Source: Candidatus Zixiibacteriota bacterium
GTDB lineage: Bacteria; Zixibacteria; MSB-5A5; GN15; FEB-12
Length of the DNA: 54,711 nucleotides
Direction of reading: 5' to 3'
NCBI GenBank assembly: GCA_024280215.1
Contig: JAJRQO010000010.1
Location: 1-54,711 of the forward strand
The notes beneath the pieces were generated by a model. That model did no database searches. It was not told the origin of the DNA and saw only the letters and a program-made list of their open reading frames with translations. Made by a program: the position numbers and the translations under genes. Shown piece after piece: positions 22,516 through 31,307 of the stretch; the stretch's first letter is position 1, and each line of letters starts with the position of its first letter.

Positions 22516-23940
22516 CTACAACGTGTAATAGTCTTCGAAATTGAATTCAAAACCTTCGGGAGTGTACTCCCCTTTTTCTTTATCTAAGATATAGTTTTGA
22601 TTATAATCGCCAGCGACGATTTTTTTTATCATCTCAATAAAGCGGTCGACTTCATCAAAAGTATTATAAATTCCAAACGACATACGAATAGTCCCCGGTA
22701 TACCAGAACGGTCTCGGTTTAAAATCTGCTGTTCCATAATATGAGACTCTTCTTCTGTCACTTGCATAATTTCTTTGACATAAGTATGAGCGCAAAAACA
22801 TCCCGATCTTACACCAATAGCTCCTTCGTAACTCAAAATAGCTGCTACAAGATAATGCGGTATATCACCAACATTCATAGAGATAACCCCAAGACGATTC
22901 ATAGTATTATTCGGGTCTGTATCGCCGTACAGTTTCACTTCGGGGATTTTTTTGAGAGCTTTAAGTGCATAGGTTGTAAGGTCTGCCTCATGCTTGACTA
23001 TCGCATCCCAACCTATCTGTTGAAGTAGCTTAATCATGTGACCAAGTGCTACTACGCCGACAATATCAGGAGTGCCAGCTTCTTCTTTGTCTGGCAGGTC
23101 CGCCCAATACGCTTCTTCAAGAGTCACAATATCAACAACACCACCGCCAACTTGGTCGGGGTCACCTTCTTCAAATGTTTCCAAATCAGAAATCAAAACA
23201 CCCACACCAAATGGTGCATACATTTTATGAGCTGAAAGAACAAAATAATCAATTGAGCATTCAGGGTCATTTGGCTTTAAATCTATCGGACGGTGCGGGG
23301 TCAGCTGGGCACCATCAATCATAATTTTTGCTCCGATTTTGTGGGCTTCTCTGGCGAAGAAATCTAAATCATTAAGATAACCAGTTACATTTGAGGCACC
23401 TGTTACGGCAACCAATTTTACACGGCTCCCGAACTCTTTTAGTTTTGCTAAAAAATCATCTGTGTCAATTGTCCCATCATCGTTGAGCCCAACATGCTGT
23501 ACTTCGGCGACTCGACGCCATGGCAATTCATTAGAATGATGTTCCATATAAGTAGTTATAACAATATCACCCTCTTCAAAGACTAACCGTGATGCAAGTT
23601 TGTTGATTGCTTCGGTAGCATTTTTAGTAAATAGAACAACCTGTTTGGAAAGGTCGGCACCGACAAATTCTGCTACTATGTCGCGGGATTCTTCAAACGC
23701 CCAACTTGAAAGTTGTGATTTAAATCCTGTACCACGATGCACATTAGAGTACCATCTGAGAAATGATTTCAGAGAATCAGCAATAGGAATAAAAGTCGGT
23801 GTCGATGCGGCGTTGTCGAAATTGATATACTGTTTCATACCGTGAATTGTTGGGACTTGGGTATCAGCACCTACTAATAAATTGGGAAGATCATCTATCG
23901 TGATTTTTTTATTCTGATATGTTAATTCTGTTGTCGTCAT
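22516..23940 (-). CDS. Class V aminotransferase (cysteine desulfurase-like)
   Basis: 474 residues, PLP-dependent, about 60 longer than SufS. Visible signatures: TKNATEAINKLASRL, the PLP-contact MIDGAQLTPHRPIDLK, the Schiff-base lysine in FVLSAHKMYAPFGVG, and near the end RSGCFCAHTYV, whose Cys sits where SufS/CsdA carry the reactive persulfide cysteine. It could mobilise sulfur from cysteine or act on another amino acid; the Cys-rich loop favours desulfurase or cysteine lyase chemistry. No suf or isc partners are in the window, so the physiological role is open. Start with GAGGTAA site. Confidence 0.85.
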   Translation of the reverse strand: MTTTELTYQNKKITIDDLPNLLVGADTQVPTIHGMKQYINFDNAASTPTFIPIADSLKSFLRWYSNVHRGTGFKSQLSSWAFEESRDIVAEFVGADLSKQVVLFTKNATEAINKLASRLVFEEGDIVITTYMEHHSNELPWRRVAEVQHVGLNDDGTIDTDDFLAKLKEFGSRVKLVAVTGASNVTGYLNDLDFFAREAHKIGAKIMIDGAQLTPHRPIDLKPNDPECSIDYFVLSAHKMYAPFGVGVLISDLETFEEGDPDQVGGGVVDIVTLEEAYWADLPDKEEAGTPDIVGVVALGHMIKLLQQIGWDAIVKHEADLTTYALKALKKIPEVKLYGDTDPNNTMNRLGVISMNVGDIPHYLVAAILSYEGAIGVRSGCFCAHTYVKEIMQVTEEESHIMEQQILNRDRSGIPGTIRMSFGIYNTFDEVDRFIEMIKKIVAGDYNQNYILDKEKGEYTPEGFEFNFEDYYTL

Positions 23941-24070
23941 TAGTTTACCTCGTAATGTTTATTGTCACTTGTAATATAGAGTACGGAATATGAAAAAACA
24001 ACTTGATTACTTAGGAATTTTAAAGGAACATATTTTACCTTTGTATCAGATTATTAGAATAGTCTTTCAA

Positions 24071-24156
24071 GACCCTTTGACTCCGCTCAGGGTGACTTAA
24101 AAGACTAAAATATTCGACTATCTGTCATACTGAGCGGAGTCAAAGTATGCTCCAAA
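24071..24156. repeat. Inverted pair of GAGCGGAGTC-loop stem-loops
   Basis: 24071-24098 (minus strand) has the stem ACCCT/AGGGT; 24123-24156 (plus strand) has CATACT/AGTATG. Both hold the loop GAGCGGAGTCAA. The pair faces itself between wecB and the aminotransferase gene, so the two could also pair with each other through the shared loop. Confidence 0.8.
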
Positions 24157-24168
24157 ATAAATAATTAT

Positions 24169-25266
24169 TTATAGATTTTTTTCGAGATAGGAGACTATAC
24201 GTTGAGCAGTTGCTCCATCCCAAAACTTTGGCACAGCAGATTGCTTGTAGTTGCCATTTAAAATTTCATCAATTTTCTCATTGAGAAAACCGATATCTTC
24301 ACCGCAAAGCGTGTTACTTCCGATAGAAATAGTCTCTGGCTGTTCGGTATTAGAGCGAATGGTCAGACACGGAATTTTTAGATATGTAGTGTCGCCTTGG
24401 ATACCACCGCTATCGGTAATGACAAATTTTGAATATGCAAGTAATGCAAGAAAATCAATATACCCGAGTGGCTCAATCAAATGAAATGAATCTGATTGGA
24501 TGAGAGATTGTAGTTCAAATTTTTCAATCATCTTGAGAGTTCTTGGATGACATGGAAAAACAACATCTATTTTTTTACTGAGTTCAACAAGTAGAGCCAA
24601 ATATTTCGTCAACCGTTCTTTATTATCAACATTTGACGGGCGGTGCATCGTTACGGCGACATATTTTTTTTCTATCAGAGAATTATCAGAAATAACTTTA
24701 GAGTCTGAAAGTTTAGAAAGATTTTGTTTTAACGAATCAATCATGATATTTCCGACCATTATTACATGCTTTTTGTCGATTCCCTCATTTACAAGATTAT
24801 CAACTCCCGCCTGTTCGGTGACAAAATGAAAATCAGCAAGACGATCGGTTACAATACGGTTTATTTCTTCGGGCATCCTATTATCAAAAGAACGAAGCCC
24901 TGCCTCAACATGGGCAAGTTTAATTCCAAGTTTTGCGGTGACAACCGCTGTTGCCAAAGTCGAGTTTATATCGCCAAAAACAATGACCACATCAGGTGCG
25001 AGATTAATAAGTTCTTTTTCTAATGCGACCATGACATTGGCAGTTTGCTCTGCGTGGGAACCAGAACCAACTCCAAGATAGATATCAGATTTTGGAATAT
25101 TCAGATCTTCAAAAAAAAGTTGCGAAAGATTGTAGTCATAATGCTGACCTGTATGAATAAGAGTAATCTCAAACTGGGCTGATTCTCGCAACATGGCATG
25201 AATCAGCGGAGCGGCTTTCATAAAATTTGGTCTGGCACCAACAACTAAAACAGCATGTTTTTTCAT
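24169..25266 (-). CDS. wecB: UDP-N-acetylglucosamine 2-epimerase
   Basis: 365 residues, the normal length. The enzyme interconverts UDP-GlcNAc and UDP-ManNAc for surface polysaccharide synthesis in the cytosol. Motifs seen: VVGARPNFMKAAPLIHAM at the start, HTGQHYDYNLSQLFFEDL, HVEAGLRSFDNRMPEEINRIVTDR (catalytic acids, residues about 118-140), VTMHRPSNVDN and the UDP-contact ITDSGGIQGDTTY; the usual EE after GGIQ is GD here. It follows the glycosyltransferase gene by 87 bases, forming a small glycan cluster. Confidence 0.93.
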   Translation of the reverse strand: MKKHAVLVVGARPNFMKAAPLIHAMLRESAQFEITLIHTGQHYDYNLSQLFFEDLNIPKSDIYLGVGSGSHAEQTANVMVALEKELINLAPDVVIVFGDINSTLATAVVTAKLGIKLAHVEAGLRSFDNRMPEEINRIVTDRLADFHFVTEQAGVDNLVNEGIDKKHVIMVGNIMIDSLKQNLSKLSDSKVISDNSLIEKKYVAVTMHRPSNVDNKERLTKYLALLVELSKKIDVVFPCHPRTLKMIEKFELQSLIQSDSFHLIEPLGYIDFLALLAYSKFVITDSGGIQGDTTYLKIPCLTIRSNTEQPETISIGSNTLCGEDIGFLNEKIDEILNGNYKQSAVPKFWDGATAQRIVSYLEKNL

Positions 25267-25353
25267 ATAAAAGAAAGTTACCTGTTTGTGAAATTATACA
25301 TATCAAAATATCAGAGTAGAAAATAGAGGATTTAAAAGAGAAAGCAATCTTTT

Positions 25354-26571
25354 TTATAATACTTTTTCATCTAAAAAAACAAGATACTTGCCAGCCCAAA
25401 TCTCACGAGAGTGGAATTTTTTAACATGCTCTGAATATTGACGACCCAAAGTAGCTCCATCAATTTGTTCAGATTTGAGTTCTAAGATAAGTTCAGTTAG
25501 ACGATTGACATCTTCGCAATGATAGGACAATGCTCCCCCAGCTTTTTGTAACTCATCAACAGCCTCGCCACCTGTTGAACCATAAATAATTGGTTTGCCA
25601 GAAGCCATATATTCAAAGAGTTTACTTGGTAATGAACCTTTGGTAACTGGAACATCTTTCATAGAGTGTACTAAGACATTTCCTGCTTGTAAGAAAAATG
25701 GTATAGATTCAAGCGGCTGTACACCGACAAATTCTACATTTTTTAGTCCGTAATCACGCACCATCCCTTCGAGTACTTCCTTCTTTTGTCCATCACCGAT
25801 AAAGGTAAACAAAATATCAGGTTGGTCGTGCAACTGACGAGCAGATTCGACAAATGTCTCAAGTGAGTGAGCCCATCCGAGCGTCCCAGAGTAAATAACT
25901 AAAAATTTATTTTCCCAACCAAATTTCTGACGAATACCATTTGAACTGGCATTGATAAATTCGGCTCCAACTCCAGATTTGATAGTGACAATCTTATCAG
26001 GATCATTGGTTACTTTTGTAAGAAAAGTTGTAATACCTTCTGTAACGCCAACAATTTTATCCGCTTTTCTATACATTGTATGCATATATTTTTTGAGCAT
26101 TCTGGTAAAAAGAGAGCGATTGAGGTTTCCAAAATCTTCAGAAGATTCAGGTTGTAAATCTCTGATTTCCAAAACAAATTTACATTTTTTCAATTTACTC
26201 AAAATCCATCCAATAAGAGGAGTAGTAATCGGCGGTGATGAAGCAATTAGCATGTCAAATTTACCAGTAACTCGGAATGAGTTAATAATAGTCGTAATTA
26301 GAAATATGATAAACCCAAGCATTCTTTTTTTGGGTTGACTGTTTGAAGCAGGTAAAACCCAACTGCGATATACCTTTACGCCATCCATGACTTCATAATC
26401 AAAGAATTTACCCCTATATTTAGGCGGAACTATCCCATCAGGGTAGTTCGGAATCGCCGTTAAAACAGAGACATCGTGTCCTTGACGTACAAAATACCTG
26501 GCAAATTCGAATATTCGCCTGACTGCTCCCCGTTCAGGAGGAAAATGTTGAGTTACAAATAAAATCTTCAT
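25354..26571 (-). CDS. GT4-family glycosyltransferase (WbuB-like)
   Basis: 405 residues with the GT-B fold. The N-terminal domain begins ILFVTQHFPPERGAVRRIFEFARY, typical of WbuB/WcaI-like enzymes, and contains LEIRDLQPESSEDFGN. The C-terminal domain has FLVIYSGTLGWAHSLET, the FIGDGQKKEVLE segment, VSMK-type HSMKDVPVTKGSLPSKLFEYMASGKPII and the catalytic-region acids in GSLPSKLFEY. It probably transfers a sugar to a lipid-linked O-antigen or capsule precursor. Its neighbour wecB supplies UDP-ManNAc-type donors. Confidence 0.88.
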   Translation of the reverse strand: MKILFVTQHFPPERGAVRRIFEFARYFVRQGHDVSVLTAIPNYPDGIVPPKYRGKFFDYEVMDGVKVYRSWVLPASNSQPKKRMLGFIIFLITTIINSFRVTGKFDMLIASSPPITTPLIGWILSKLKKCKFVLEIRDLQPESSEDFGNLNRSLFTRMLKKYMHTMYRKADKIVGVTEGITTFLTKVTNDPDKIVTIKSGVGAEFINASSNGIRQKFGWENKFLVIYSGTLGWAHSLETFVESARQLHDQPDILFTFIGDGQKKEVLEGMVRDYGLKNVEFVGVQPLESIPFFLQAGNVLVHSMKDVPVTKGSLPSKLFEYMASGKPIIYGSTGGEAVDELQKAGGALSYHCEDVNRLTELILELKSEQIDGATLGRQYSEHVKKFHSREIWAGKYLVFLDEKVL

Positions 26572-26765
26572 ATATATTTCACCATCTAAATTCTACGTAA
26601 AATAAGGCATATTGGCAAGGGCTTTTTCAGCTTTTACGTTCTTTGTAATAAACTATCTATAAATGCTTGACTATAATTGAATTAGTGTATATTTTCACAA
26701 AGTAAGGACATAATGATGATTATAATTGTATAAGGTATAACTAAAACAACTGAGAGGTAGTTATT

Positions 26766-27263
26766 ATGCGTAAAGTTTCAATTTTAGTTTTAATGTTCAT
26801 GGCTTTAATGGCAAGTTCTGTATTCGCATCAGATGCCAAAAAAGACCACGCGTATGTAGGTGTAAAAAAATGTAAAACATGTCATAAAGCTCAATTTAAG
26901 TCATGGAGCGAAACAGGTCATGCCAAAGCATTTGACTTGCTTTCTGCTGAAGAACAAAAAGATCCAAAATGTGTAGGTTGTCATTCAACTGGTACAACAG
27001 CAAAAGGTGTTTTCTTAGAAGGCGTCCAATGTGAAGCTTGTCATGGTGGTGGTAAAGATTTCAAATCATCAAAAATCATGAGTAAGAAAAAATGGAAAGC
27101 TGATCCAGAAGCACACAAGAAAATGGCTATTGAAGCTGGTTTGATTTATCCAAAAGAAGAAAATTGTGTTCGTTGTCATACTAAAGAAGGTAATACAAAT
27201 TTCAAAGAATTCAAATTTGCTGAACGCAAAGAATTAGTTCACCCAGTACCAGCAAAAAAATAA
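26766..27263 (+). CDS. Exported tetraheme cytochrome c (c554-like)
   Basis: 165 residues with a Sec signal (MRKVSILVLMFMALMASSVFA). Four CxxCH heme sites: CKTCH (36-40), CVGCH (69-73), CEACH (89-93) and CVRCH (134-138). The spacing and the YVGVKKCKTCH-x7-WSETGHAKAF start match the cytochrome c554 / multiheme c-type family, where His residues outside the motifs (for example GHAKAF) serve as distal ligands. The protein should act in the periplasm as an electron carrier or small-molecule reductase. A GAGG site precedes the ATG; TTGACT (26667) and TATATT (26688) are a possible but closely spaced promoter. The mature protein is lysine-rich. Confidence 0.9.
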   Translation: MRKVSILVLMFMALMASSVFASDAKKDHAYVGVKKCKTCHKAQFKSWSETGHAKAFDLLSAEEQKDPKCVGCHSTGTTAKGVFLEGVQCEACHGGGKDFKSSKIMSKKKWKADPEAHKKMAIEAGLIYPKEENCVRCHTKEGNTNFKEFKFAERKELVHPVPAKK

Positions 27264-27280
27264 ATTATTAGATTATATAG

Positions 27281-27314
27281 AAAAAACCGTTCATAAATAT
27301 GAACGGTTTTTTTT
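27281..27314. terminator. Intrinsic terminator after the cytochrome gene
   Basis: AAAAAACCGTTCAT-aaat-ATGAACGGTTTTTTTT: 14-bp perfect arms including the A/T runs. Confidence 0.9.
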
Positions 27315-27371
27315 GTGCAATAACTTAAACAAAATTCAATACATCCGCATCATAACCTCCCCAAGTAATAG

Positions 27372-27400
27372 TTGACAATTTGTGTCGCCTTTTATATCTT
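27372..27400 (+). promoter_or_regulatory. Candidate sigma70-type promoter for the globin gene
   Basis: TTGACA (27372-27377), 17 bases, TATCTT (27395-27400), about 85 bases upstream of the ATG at 27487. The globin therefore appears to be transcribed separately from the cytochrome. Confidence 0.5.
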
Positions 27401-27486
27401 TTATTAGTATTTTATCCTCTCGCAGAAAAGTAATATAAAAATAGAAGTGTGGTAAATCATTAATTTTTCAATGAAAGAGAATTAAA

Positions 27487-27966
27487 ATGAGGAAAAAATT
27501 AATAATCAGAAACGTATTACTCATGTTTGTATTGTGTAGTCTATTCTTTGTATCTGTTATTTCAGCAGAAGATGCTACTGAACAAGCTGACGTATCATTG
27601 TATGAACGTTTAGGTGGCGTATATGCTATCGCATCTGTTGTGGATGAGCTTATAGATCGACTTGAAGTAAATGATGTTTTGAATGCAAATCCAATACTCG
27701 ATAAAGCTCGTACAGAAGTTCCAAAAGCAGGAATTAAATTTAGATTAACAGCTATGCTTTGTCAAGCTACAGGCGGTCCAGAAGTATATCATGGTCGTTC
27801 TATGAAAGAGTCTCACTCACATCTTAATATTTCAAATGCGGAATGGGACGAAATGGTAAAGGTCTTTTCAAAATTATTAAATGATTTTAAAGTTCCTGAA
27901 AAAGAACAAGGCGAATTGTTTGCATTGATTGGTCCAACAAAAGCCGATATTGTTACAAAAAAATAA
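27487..27966 (+). CDS. Exported group 1 truncated hemoglobin-like protein
   Basis: 159 residues. A basic, hydrophobic leader (KKLIIRNVLLMFVLCSLFFVSVISA) should direct export, which is unusual because truncated globins are mostly cytosolic. From residue 37 the globin reads SLYERLGGVYAIASVVDELIDRL, then TGGPEVYHGRSMKESHSHLNIS with the probable heme-ligating His110 aligned to the family pattern GxSMKxAHxxLxI, then a final helix pair. Typical roles of the family are nitric oxide or oxygen binding. The gene lies right behind a periplasmic tetraheme cytochrome that could be its electron donor; each gene has its own terminator. Confidence 0.85.
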   Translation: MRKKLIIRNVLLMFVLCSLFFVSVISAEDATEQADVSLYERLGGVYAIASVVDELIDRLEVNDVLNANPILDKARTEVPKAGIKFRLTAMLCQATGGPEVYHGRSMKESHSHLNISNAEWDEMVKVFSKLLNDFKVPEKEQGELFALIGPTKADIVTKK

Positions 27967-27981
27967 ATTATTTTTTTATAT

Positions 27982-28012
27982 AAAAAAAGCCCGCTTAGGC
28001 GGGCTTTTTTTT
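27982..28012. terminator. Intrinsic terminator after the globin gene
   Basis: AGCCCGC-ttag-GCGGGCT with A- and T-runs on either side; it can also end the minus-strand operon whose last gene stops at 28034. Confidence 0.92.
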
Positions 28013-28033
28013 GCAATAATATATTTATGAATC

Positions 28034-28582
28034 TTATTCAAATGAAAATGTTCGCACCGACACCCATCTAAAATTCGCAAGTGGAGTTACCAAGTCTAAG
28101 GCAGTTGCCTGAAATGTTTCGTTTGGTAAATACGATGCGATAGCATCTTTGACTGTTTCAACACGATGTGTTGAGATTTCTCTGGCAAGAGTAGCATGCG
28201 GAACAAAATTTTTATGAGGGATAGCAATGCCAAGCTCAGCATACAAATTGATATACAGCTCTCTCAAATGTAAATTATCTTTTACTTGCCAATAAATCAC
28301 AGGCGACTGTGGATAAAAATCTGAAATAGAATCAAGCTTTATATCTATCGGTTTATACCCTTTGATAATAGAATTTACCGTTGTCGACAATTCATCTAAA
28401 GTTTTTTCAGTATAAAATGGAAAGACCAATGTTATATGTGATGCAACTTGATTATATACTGGATCATATTTTTCCCGAAAGGGTTGAATAATCTGATCTA
28501 AGTTAAATGGTAAATATGTTATGATAGCATATTCTGTTTTTCTGCGATTGATAAAATCATCTTCAAATGAAAACTTTGACAT
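28034..28582 (-). CDS. 2'-5' RNA ligase/cyclic phosphodiesterase-fold protein
   Basis: 182 residues of the 2H phosphoesterase superfamily. Both HxT/S catalytic motifs are present: ASHITLVFPF in the first half and FVPHATLAR in the second, with about 80 residues between, as expected. Members open 2',3'-cyclic phosphates or join RNA ends; the natural substrate here is unknown. It is the last gene of the six-gene minus-strand operon, 11 bases behind the OmpA gene, an odd companion for cell-wall genes. A GGGAAAA site precedes the ATG. Confidence 0.8.
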   Translation of the reverse strand: MSKFSFEDDFINRRKTEYAIITYLPFNLDQIIQPFREKYDPVYNQVASHITLVFPFYTEKTLDELSTTVNSIIKGYKPIDIKLDSISDFYPQSPVIYWQVKDNLHLRELYINLYAELGIAIPHKNFVPHATLAREISTHRVETVKDAIASYLPNETFQATALDLVTPLANFRWVSVRTFSFE

Positions 28583-28593
28583 TTTTTCCCGTT

Positions 28594-30045
28594 CTATTTA
28601 TAAAACATAATTTCTATACGTCGGTTTTTTGCTCTACCTGCTGAAGTCTTATTAGATTCAACAAAATTTGTTTCACCTAATCCAAAAACTTTTATACGGT
28701 CAGCATCAATTCCTAAACCAACTAAATAGTCTCTCACTCTTCTTGCTCTTTTTTCTGATAGTTTTTTATTCGCAACAGTCGTACCAATATTATCAGTATA
28801 GCCAGAAATATCAAATCGGACATCTTTGACAAAATTAAGTATCCGAGATAAATCCTTTAAACGTTTTCTATTGTTTGGATCGACTTCAAATGAACCCGGT
28901 AGATAATCAATATTTAAGACTAATGTCTTAGATAAAATAGTTAAATCAATACAGCCGTTTTTATCAACATCAACGCCAAACAATGTGTTCGGACAATCAT
29001 CGAGCCCATCAGGAACCGAATCACCGTCGGAGTCAACAGGACAGCCACTCTCATCAACATGAGCACCTTTTTTATTATTTGGACAATTATCTAAATAGTC
29101 AGCGATTCCATCAAAGTCTGAATCTATCGGACAACCATTGATATCAACTGCACCGTACGCGGCACGATTAGTACCAGGGCAATGGTCCAACCCATCTGGA
29201 ACCGAGTCACCATCGGAATCTATCGGACAACCTTTTTTATCAACCATAGCTCCCGAAGCGGTCTCTGGACATTTATCTTTAGAGTCAGAAACACCATCAC
29301 CATCGGAGTCTATACCTGACCTTTTTTTACTAACAACAATTTGAGCTGGTTGCCGCCATGTTTCATCTGATTTCCAATTTGTTTTTTTAAAGCCACCAAA
29401 CAAAAATTTCAACGATGCAAAAACTGAAAGTTGTTGTTTGTTTCTTTGAATTTTCACGACGGGGTCAAACTCTGCTCCGCCACCTGAAAGGTAATCATAG
29501 GCTATATCAGTTGAAAATGTCCATTTCGATGAAAGATTATAGTTAATACCAAGTGCTGATGAAAAGATAAGTTCCGAAGCATCATAGTCAACTTGGTCAT
29601 CATGCAGACCTGTAACATTTAAAATTGTATCTGTGGCAGGGTCACGTACGTCCCAATTAAGAAGACCTACTCCAACTCCTAATTGTAAATTAATTTTTGC
29701 ATCAGGATTATTAAGAGACCGATACATCATTACTGAATAACGTGACGCTTTCCATTGTTGGGTCGCATTAAGCGGAGAACCGTTAAAATCAAACGATGAG
29801 TTTTTTGTACTGTCATTATAATTTTCGTGAGTTGTGTATCCAAATTCAAAGATATAATTGCGATGGAAATGATAACCAAAAATTCCACCAACAGTTTTTT
29901 CAAATGGCATCGTCAATGTATCAGCAGTCGCTCCCATAGGGTGTGACATCCCTCCACGCAACCCAATATAATACGTATAGTCATATCCATAAGAATATGA
30001 ACTACATAGTAGCAAAAGACTCAGTATGTATAATAATTTTTTCAT
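28594..30045 (-). CDS. OmpA-family outer membrane protein with thrombospondin type-3 repeats
   Basis: 483 residues. Signal peptide MKKLLYILSLLLLCSSYSYG, then an eight-strand-type beta-barrel domain (to about 210). From about 245 to 365 there are four calcium-binding repeats of the form DSDGDxVxDxxDxCPxTxxGAxVDxxGCP. The end (about 380-483) is a peptidoglycan-binding OmpA domain with FDISGYTDNIGTTVANKKLSEKRARRVRDYL cut into its usual motifs and ending GRAKNRRIEIMFYK. It anchors the outer membrane to the wall. It starts 2 bases after the SpoIID-like gene, which places it firmly among wall-turnover genes. Confidence 0.92.
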   Translation of the reverse strand: MKKLLYILSLLLLCSSYSYGYDYTYYIGLRGGMSHPMGATADTLTMPFEKTVGGIFGYHFHRNYIFEFGYTTHENYNDSTKNSSFDFNGSPLNATQQWKASRYSVMMYRSLNNPDAKINLQLGVGVGLLNWDVRDPATDTILNVTGLHDDQVDYDASELIFSSALGINYNLSSKWTFSTDIAYDYLSGGGAEFDPVVKIQRNKQQLSVFASLKFLFGGFKKTNWKSDETWRQPAQIVVSKKRSGIDSDGDGVSDSKDKCPETASGAMVDKKGCPIDSDGDSVPDGLDHCPGTNRAAYGAVDINGCPIDSDFDGIADYLDNCPNNKKGAHVDESGCPVDSDGDSVPDGLDDCPNTLFGVDVDKNGCIDLTILSKTLVLNIDYLPGSFEVDPNNRKRLKDLSRILNFVKDVRFDISGYTDNIGTTVANKKLSEKRARRVRDYLVGLGIDADRIKVFGLGETNFVESNKTSAGRAKNRRIEIMFYK

Positions 30046-30047
30046 AG

Positions 30048-31307
30048 TTAATATAATTTTTTTATCTCTACGTCAGTATAGTAACGTTTTAAAATATTTT
30101 CAAATGTCCAACCTTGGCGTGACAAACCAATTGCCCCGCATTGGCACATGCCAACTCCGTGTCCATACCCTTTTCCTTCAAAAGTAACTGCCTCAACGTA
30201 ACCATCAGCAGCTCTGGTAATATGCACATCAAAATTATCAGATGGAAGAATTAAATCTGGGTTTGATGTACGCCCTAAAACCCATCTGATACGATCTTTC
30301 TTAAACCGATAAATATCATTTTCGGTGGTAACTTTCATTACTGAAACTCGTCCACCTGGGGTACGTCCGACAATTTTAATATCTTTAATTTTTTCAATAC
30401 GTAAATCTTTCCCACGATCAGATGACAAATACTGTTCAATTCTATTTCTTATTTGTTGTTCGGTAAAGTGTTCTTTCCATCTAAAATATTTTGACCAAGA
30501 ACAGGCGTCATCATCTTTTACCGCTTTTAAGTATGGTGATTCTTTGCGATCCCATACCTGTTCGATATTATCTGTCATTCCACCACAGGTTGAATGGTAA
30601 TATACCGTCACATATTTATCCTGACTATATAAAACCTGTCCCGCGGTTTCATCAATCGCTCTATTAACAAGTTTGAGCTCAACTGATGCTCCACCATAGA
30701 CCTGATCGATAATTGATGATTTCATATCGTAAGGTTGATTGGCATATTGCTTAAGATGTGCCATTGCGTATGTACGAGCGGCGACTGCCTGTGCTTTGAC
30801 CGCTTCAATTTCTGATTCTTTACGGGGACCAAGCTCAGGAGGAACCACTCCACGGAGATAGTCTTCCATATAGATAATATTAATCAATTTGACATTACCA
30901 CCATCAGGAAGAAATTTTAGAATGCCTCTATATTTTTTCTTTAAGGCAATCAGTTTGTTGTCTGTCCCACGAGGTAAAATATTTATTTCATCAAGACGGT
31001 CAGCAATTAAATTACCTTTGTGATTGATGACTTTTACAAAATTTCCTTGGTTGCTTATTTTTACTGGTTGTGCAGCATAAAAAATTGACTGCTCACCATC
31101 TTTGAGACATTCTATGGCAAATGATTCTTCAGCCGTAATTGAAAATTCAGACTTGTTTTCTTCAAGCAAAACACGCACAAAAGGAATACGGATATATTCA
31201 CCATTTTTTTCTTCTTGTAGCCCTGGGACTCTGGCACAACTCCACACCAATGCCATCAAGCCAAAAATTGTTCCAACCCGAGCAAAATATTTTAATGCTT
31301 TATCCAA
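30048..31307 (-). CDS. SpoIID/LytB-domain lipoprotein
   Basis: 419 residues. The start is TTG at 31307 with AAAGGAA seven bases before; it gives a lipoprotein signal ending VWSC (Cys24). The SpoIID domain occupies about 135-400: YLRGVVPPELGPRKESEIEAVKAQAVAARTYAMAH, cut here into its hallmarks, then VYYHSTCGGMTDNIEQVW and GYGHGVGMCQCGAIGL. Spore-type SpoIID is a lytic transglycosylase on peptide-free glycan strands; members in non-sporulating Gram-negatives probably do similar wall trimming. Lipid anchoring puts it in the periplasm, where it would feed NagZ and AnmK of the same operon with wall fragments. Confidence 0.9.
   Translation of the reverse strand: MDKALKYFARVGTIFGLMALVWSCARVPGLQEEKNGEYIRIPFVRVLLEENKSEFSITAEESFAIECLKDGEQSIFYAAQPVKISNQGNFVKVINHKGNLIADRLDEINILPRGTDNKLIALKKKYRGILKFLPDGGNVKLINIIYMEDYLRGVVPPELGPRKESEIEAVKAQAVAARTYAMAHLKQYANQPYDMKSSIIDQVYGGASVELKLVNRAIDETAGQVLYSQDKYVTVYYHSTCGGMTDNIEQVWDRKESPYLKAVKDDDACSWSKYFRWKEHFTEQQIRNRIEQYLSSDRGKDLRIEKIKDIKIVGRTPGGRVSVMKVTTENDIYRFKKDRIRWVLGRTSNPDLILPSDNFDVHITRAADGYVEAVTFEGKGYGHGVGMCQCGAIGLSRQGWTFENILKRYYTDVEIKKLY

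Follow-up and report, generated by a model that had tools for sequence, protein, structure and literature searches.

The locus and its cytochrome

The window, the whole stretch of DNA analysed here, comprises 54,711 nucleotides of a Candidatus Zixiibacteriota genome (G000) whose assembly totals 3.03 Mb in 42 contigs. On its forward strand lie two neighbouring genes, one for an exported c554-like tetraheme cytochrome of 165 residues (26766 to 27263) and one for a group 1 truncated haemoglobin (trHb) of 159 residues that is predicted to be exported (27487 to 27966), with a putative leader in its first 27 residues (27487 to 27567). Both open reading frames were found where an earlier sequence-only reading had placed a group 1 globin next to a tetraheme cytochrome. 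The globin is the single match to the Bac_globin profile in this genome. The surrounding block (22516 to 31307) is conserved in the phylum and runs in the order aminotransferase, epimerase, glycosyltransferase, tetraheme cytochrome, LigT, OmpA/TSP3 protein and a last gene that we take to be SpoIID-like. Two of its members, both on the reverse strand, are the usual neighbours of the cytochrome: the glycosyltransferase (25354 to 26571; PF00534) and a LigT/2'-5' RNA ligase-like gene (28034 to 28582; PF13563, E 5.4e-21).

The cytochrome matches PF13435 (Cytochrome_C554; E 2.4e-13, 51.3 bits, cut-off 20.8), contains four CXXCH motifs and has cytochrome c554 of Nitrosomonas europaea (1bvb) as its closest structure (E 3.1e-13), which bears out its description as a c554-like neighbour. 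The two proteins share the four motifs, the PF13435 domain and aligned SW..T.HAKA and CE.CHG segments, whereas 1bvb has 211 residues and the window's protein has 165 including its leader. Against the NCBIfam equivalog Cyt554_Nsmonas the window's cytochrome scores 66.5 bits, far below the cut-off of 400. Beyond the four motif histidines, His28 (13 of 14 proteins), His52 (14 of 14) and His159 (14 of 14) are conserved in an alignment of the 14 family members retrieved from 17 sought, the window's included. Seven histidines for four haems suggest that one haem perhaps has no distal histidine, and c554 too has one five-coordinate haem. A role of the cytochrome in nitric oxide (NO) chemistry, separate from the globin, is possible. 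The cytochrome of one congener (G003; L052 6896 to 7300 on G003:C85) gives two separate matches that lie in different reading frames and looks broken, or may reflect an assembly error.

Terminator-like hairpins lie 3' of the cytochrome (27276 to 27317; −21.1 kcal/mol, z −9.4 against shuffles) and between the globin and the convergent LigT gene (27982 to 28011; −19.8 kcal/mol, z −4.4 against shuffles). A terminator scan called no terminator after either gene, probably because the A/T tracts pair inside the stems, and the separate terminators of the sequence-only reading stand as strong hairpins but not as called terminators. The promoter it assigned to the globin is unproven: a TTGACA-17-TATCTT site is located at 27372 to 27400, 5' of the gene, and the region holds 9 promoter-like sites against 7.5 ± 2.7 in shuffles, which is chance level.

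The globin, its haem pocket and its proposed ligand

The globin matches the Pfam family Bac_globin (PF01152; E 1.5e-12, 48.2 bits, cut-off 21), and its closest solved structures by sequence are group 1 truncated haemoglobins, the best being a variant from Shewanella benthica (E 1.4e-11). A structure of the mature protein was modelled from six sequences, and the best of five models reached a pLDDT of 84.3 while the other four averaged 56 to 74. In a Foldseek search with the best model, ranks 1 to 24 were occupied by group 1 structures, including ciliate and algal entries that we presume to belong to group 1, and the first group II structure appeared at rank 27. The predicted 2-on-2 fold is thus nearest to group 1, not to group 2 or 3.

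Proteins of the same type were collected from 16 genomes of the phylum (the window's included), one member of the Poribacteria, three Methylophaga-order genomes and Azoarcus sp. KH32C, giving 21 in all. The Azoarcus relative is annotated in its plasmid record simply as 'group 1 truncated hemoglobin'. Alignment of these proteins, which left out the globin of genome G026, with TrHbN proteins, namely HbN of Mycobacterium tuberculosis (1idr) and the TrHbN-2 protein SbHbN of S. benthica (8ugz), shows a shared fold, an LYERLGG start, a GGP..Y.G segment and the proximal HisF8. The window's globin differs by its export leader, six additional residues between the B and E helices, the lack of an aromatic residue in the CD1 column and an arginine at E10. 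In the tree, SbHbN pairs with a leaderless protein from genome G029 (94/89); the deep forks are weak (62/31) with the bootstrap unsettled, and the tree gives no firm position for the early branching of the exported proteins.

Pocket positions were read from the alignment with SbHbN, with B10, B13, CD1, E7 and F8 numbered as in PMC11904497. The comparison with trHb1 pocket residues called for by the sequence-only reading returned an invariant HisF8 (His110 in the window's globin; histidine in 21/21) and a hydrophobic distal pocket, with Ile, Leu or Val at B10, Ile or Leu at E7 and Leu or Val at E11 in all 21 proteins. The window's own residues are Ile56 (B10), Ile83 (E7) and Leu87 (E11), the hydrophobic B10/E7/E11 combination that characterises TrHbN-2. 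Position E10 is His in 11 proteins, Arg in four (the window's among them), Gln in four and Ser in two. The CD1 column, Phe or Tyr in the TrHbN-2 subgroup, is Arg throughout (Arg75 here), an assignment made uncertain by the six-residue insert. None of the 21 aligned proteins has TyrB10, GlnE7 or GlnE11, which weakens the case for NO turnover by the globin itself, and an NO dioxygenase of the HbN type was rejected because these residues are replaced by Ile, Ile and Leu in the window's globin. Low O2 affinity is expected where E7 and E11 are hydrophobic, according to PMC4720485 and PMC11904497.

Genomes that carry the globin are enriched for nosZ and haem-copper oxidases. At E 1e-15 the globin profile matched 17 of 132 genomes of the phylum; the exported type accounts for 16 of them, and the remaining genome, G029, has a leaderless type. 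In tests that ignore phylogeny, on metagenome-assembled genomes that are incomplete, nosZ was present in 6/16 carriers of the exported type and 7/116 non-carriers (Fisher p 0.0013), and within one family (f1) in 6/10 carriers and 2/44 non-carriers (p 0.0002). Proteins of the COX1 family exceeded the cut-off in 15/16 carriers compared with 62/116 non-carriers (p 0.002). Long NorB-like forms, recognised by length and score, gave a weak association (at least 6/16 against at least 16/116, p 0.03), and of their members only that of the window's genome was checked as NorB. A full-length-like NrfA (E < 1e-100) was found in one of the 16 carriers (G055); short matches just over the cut-off occur in four more (G014, G062, G063 and G125), and NirK at E 1e-30 is absent from all 16. 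NrfA and NirK, which show no clear link to the globin, were rejected as partners on these counts.

The window's genome encodes subunits of aa3-type and cbb3-type oxidases, together with a NorB (PF22085 and COX1; no NCBIfam match) adjacent to an Rrf2-type regulator. The latter two lie at L097 1661 to 4358 (G000:C39), and the Rrf2-family protein has weak similarity to NsrR (63.5 of 182 bits). Searches of this genome for nosZ (E 1e-10), NirK (E 1e-30) and NrfA (family cut-off) gave no match and so showed no internal source of NO, a point against the best explanation offered below. Because nosZ and haem-copper oxidases are enriched in carriers, and NorB and its Rrf2-type neighbour are present here, a link of the globin alone to NO or O2 is kept alive. 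The genes shared by carriers point to a micro-oxic or denitrifying life and so to a ligand that is either NO or O2.

The reading that we favour, to which we give a probability of about 0.45, is that the protein is a stand-alone, Sec-exported group 1 trHb of a coherent and little-noticed subfamily, and that it binds and buffers NO or O2 in the periplasm. It would bind haem b through HisF8 after export. The pocket formed by Ile B10, Ile E7 and Leu E11 would suit a globin that binds NO or O2 reversibly and gives it up quickly, and not NO dioxygenation. The globin would most likely act as a buffer at the transition between aerobic and denitrifying growth, close to the haem-copper oxidases, to NorB and, in other carriers, to NosZ, and any periplasmic donor could serve to reduce it.

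A more specific role, in which the globin captures periplasmic O2 at low tension and passes it to the cbb3 and aa3 oxidases, appears unlikely. The near-universal COX1-family proteins of carriers and the two oxidases of the window's genome agree with it, as does the description of a hydrophobic pocket as suited to O2 transport and storage in PMC11904497. Against this, COX1-family proteins are also found in more than half of the non-carriers, as counted above, and since O2 diffuses to the oxidases, a carrier of low affinity that is expressed at an ordinary level would probably contribute little.

It is rather unlikely that the globin is instead a periplasmic haem protein that reacts with peroxides in the manner of a peroxidase. 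In the Methylophaga-order genomes a second exported trHb type lies directly beside an OhrR-like MarR regulator at three of four loci (L093 5197 to 6332, L094 5388 to 6497 and L091 1435 to 2539), a position that suggests a role with peroxides and not with NO. A leaderless trHb on a Roseovarius plasmid has the same kind of neighbour (L040 4503 to 5402). These sister globins and their regulators are possibly peroxide-linked pairs. Reaction with peroxides is reported for the TrHbN-2 protein SbHbN in PMC11904497, and significant peroxidase activity for a group II trHb in PMC4319818. The window's type departs from this pattern in that no OhrR-like gene was detected by tblastn at any of its 21 loci, two of which have flanks of about 1.5 kb. 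At the fourth sister-type locus (L092) no OhrR-like gene was seen either, the OhrR matches themselves score 129 to 155 bits, under the curated cut-off of 200, and the window's type lacks the CD1 tyrosine that has been implicated in the reactivity of SbHbN. One Methylophaga genome has four matches to the globin profile.

Gene order around the globin and the cytochrome

Among 41 related genomes the cytochrome was matched in 37 and the globin in 11, two of which (G026 and G029) hold leaderless types only. Gene order was examined at 18 cytochrome loci out of the 37 genomes with a match. Twelve have LigT with no globin between, two have LigT with the globin between, two have no LigT, and two have neither neighbour; the glycosyltransferase is near the cytochrome in 16 of the 18. 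Where cytochrome and LigT occur with no globin between them the gap measures 73 to 134 bases (12/12 loci), compared with 777 and 866 bases in the window's genome and its congener G002, where the globin lies in the gap. Two other congeners, G001 and G003, have the block with no globin there, and the globin of G001 is on another contig.

Around the globin, open reading frames of at least 80 residues with two or more CXXCH motifs were sought within flanks of up to 5 kb. At 8 of the 16 loci in the phylum, and at 2 of the 3 outside it, at least one flank was shorter than 5 kb. None was found at 14 of the 16 phylum loci, the remaining two being those of G000 and G002. Outside the phylum the count was 0/3, one apparent match being UvrA; two further loci with flanks of about 1.5 kb (L089 and L090) were left out of this count. 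The survey of co-occurrence suggested by the sequence-only reading did not bear out the pairing: of the loci examined, only those of G000 and G002 have an exported globin next to a multiheme cytochrome.

The simplest reading of the spacing is that a segment with the globin was inserted before G000 and G002 diverged, although it could instead be an old arrangement lost elsewhere. By insertion, the gene would have landed in a long-standing gap between cytochrome and LigT in the common ancestor of these two congeners, with no functional unit formed. The adjacency is most likely a local accident of gene order and the apparent partnership coincidental. The statement that the two genes are linked by position rather than by transcript fits the locus, but the position itself looks accidental across loci.

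Pairing inferred from adjacency was rejected on the grounds that the cytochrome block occurs without the globin, and the globin elsewhere without a multiheme neighbour. Since both genes occur apart in other loci, the joint binding and turnover of periplasmic NO or O2 that the sequence-only reading proposed for the pair has no comparative support. A working pair, with electrons passing from the cytochrome to a globin that turns over periplasmic NO or O2, is improbable. Both proteins are predicted to be exported and are adjacent in two species, and the seven conserved histidines, four proximal and three possibly distal, may leave one haem open. In cable bacteria, periplasmic proteins in which a trHb is fused to a multihaem domain are proposed to be oxidases (PMC11976967). 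These points are set against the unequal distribution of the two genes, spacing that suggests insertion, separate hairpins 3' of each gene and a globin pocket with no TyrB10, GlnE7 or GlnE11.

A related idea, which we consider highly doubtful, is that the two proteins are the unfused counterpart of the cable-bacterial fusion, with the widespread c554-like cytochrome reducing a soluble globin through an open haem and periplasmic O2 or NO being removed. It need not depend on adjacency: among the related genomes counted above, seven of the nine with the exported globin (the window's included) have a strong cytochrome match (E < 1e-25); one has a weak match and one has none.

The export leader and the wider family

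As a rule, truncated haemoglobins are regarded as proteins of the cytosol. The leader of the window's globin, MRKKLIIRNVLLMFVLCSLFFVSVISA, is followed by ED; it has an n-region charge of +4 and a hydrophobic stretch of 12 residues with a mean hydropathy of 2.97, and it ends in I-S-A before the glutamate. All 21 proteins of the window's type have a hydrophobic extension of 30 to 56 residues ahead of the globin core, with start codons, and hence leader lengths, set by a script rule. Three aligned leaderless trHbs (two types in G029 and one from the Roseovarius plasmid) have only 5 to 7 N-terminal residues there. The motif [AVILGSTM]-x-[AGS] before E or Q follows the hydrophobic stretch in 21/21 proteins, and the strict form A-x-A before E or Q in seven, the window's own not among them. 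The n-region is positive in 19 of the 21, while G125 and G130 have no net positive charge at the script-chosen start.

Codon comparisons bear on whether the leader is translated. Relative to G002 the differences at first, second and third codon positions number 10/7/21 in the leader and 8/2/40 in the mature part, and relative to G075 they number 17/10/25 and 15/8/73. The excess at third positions in the leader, moderate against G075, supports its translation. These counts suggest that the leader is translated and that it evolves faster than the mature part, and faster evolution is typical of signal peptides. The later start codon that might have removed it was sought, and the only one able to do so is a TTG at codon 38, which was rejected because it falls inside the globin core and the codon bias of the leader favours translation. 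A lipoprotein was also rejected, as Cys17 is Phe in a congener and hence not part of a conserved lipobox. A further Methylophaga trHb-like protein (L095 5832 to 6254) has a lipoprotein-like leader.

The layout common to all 21 proteins upholds the convincing export signal described for the globin, as a prediction from sequence. The leader is more likely a cleavable signal peptide than a membrane anchor, with cleavage probably after residue 27, following VISA. A membrane anchor, which would have undone that description, is opposed by the permissive small-residue site in every protein, although the strict site occurs in only seven. It is very unlikely that an uncleaved leader tethers the globin to the periplasmic side of the inner membrane, as the long hydrophobic stretch (residues 10 to 27) and the scarcity of strict sites might suggest, given the mostly positive n-regions and the small residues that precede E or Q throughout. 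That the window encodes a truncated haemoglobin which belongs to a defined subfamily and is predicted to be exported is confirmed, an observation of modest interest.

The general idea of an exported trHb is not new, since periplasmic trHbs are known from cable bacteria, where some are fused to multihaem domains and are proposed to be unusual oxidases (PMC11976967 and PMC12093952). The window's globin, if exported as predicted, resembles them as another case in which a bacterium that respires has a truncated haemoglobin in its periplasm. The cable-bacterial trHb-pentahaem protein (lPHCtX) is described as a globin fused to a multihaem domain, whereas the window's globin is a separate single-domain protein of 159 residues. 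In the open-licence literature, covered mostly as titles and abstracts, no stand-alone exported trHb subfamily of the window's kind was found.

The locus also illustrates how neighbouring genes in a single genome can look like partners until other genomes are compared. If the favoured reading of a stand-alone periplasmic buffer is true, an exported trHb subfamily found in several phyla, with a hydrophobic pocket and statistically linked to N2O reductase and haem-copper oxidases, would make haem-based handling of NO or O2 outside the membrane a wider strategy.
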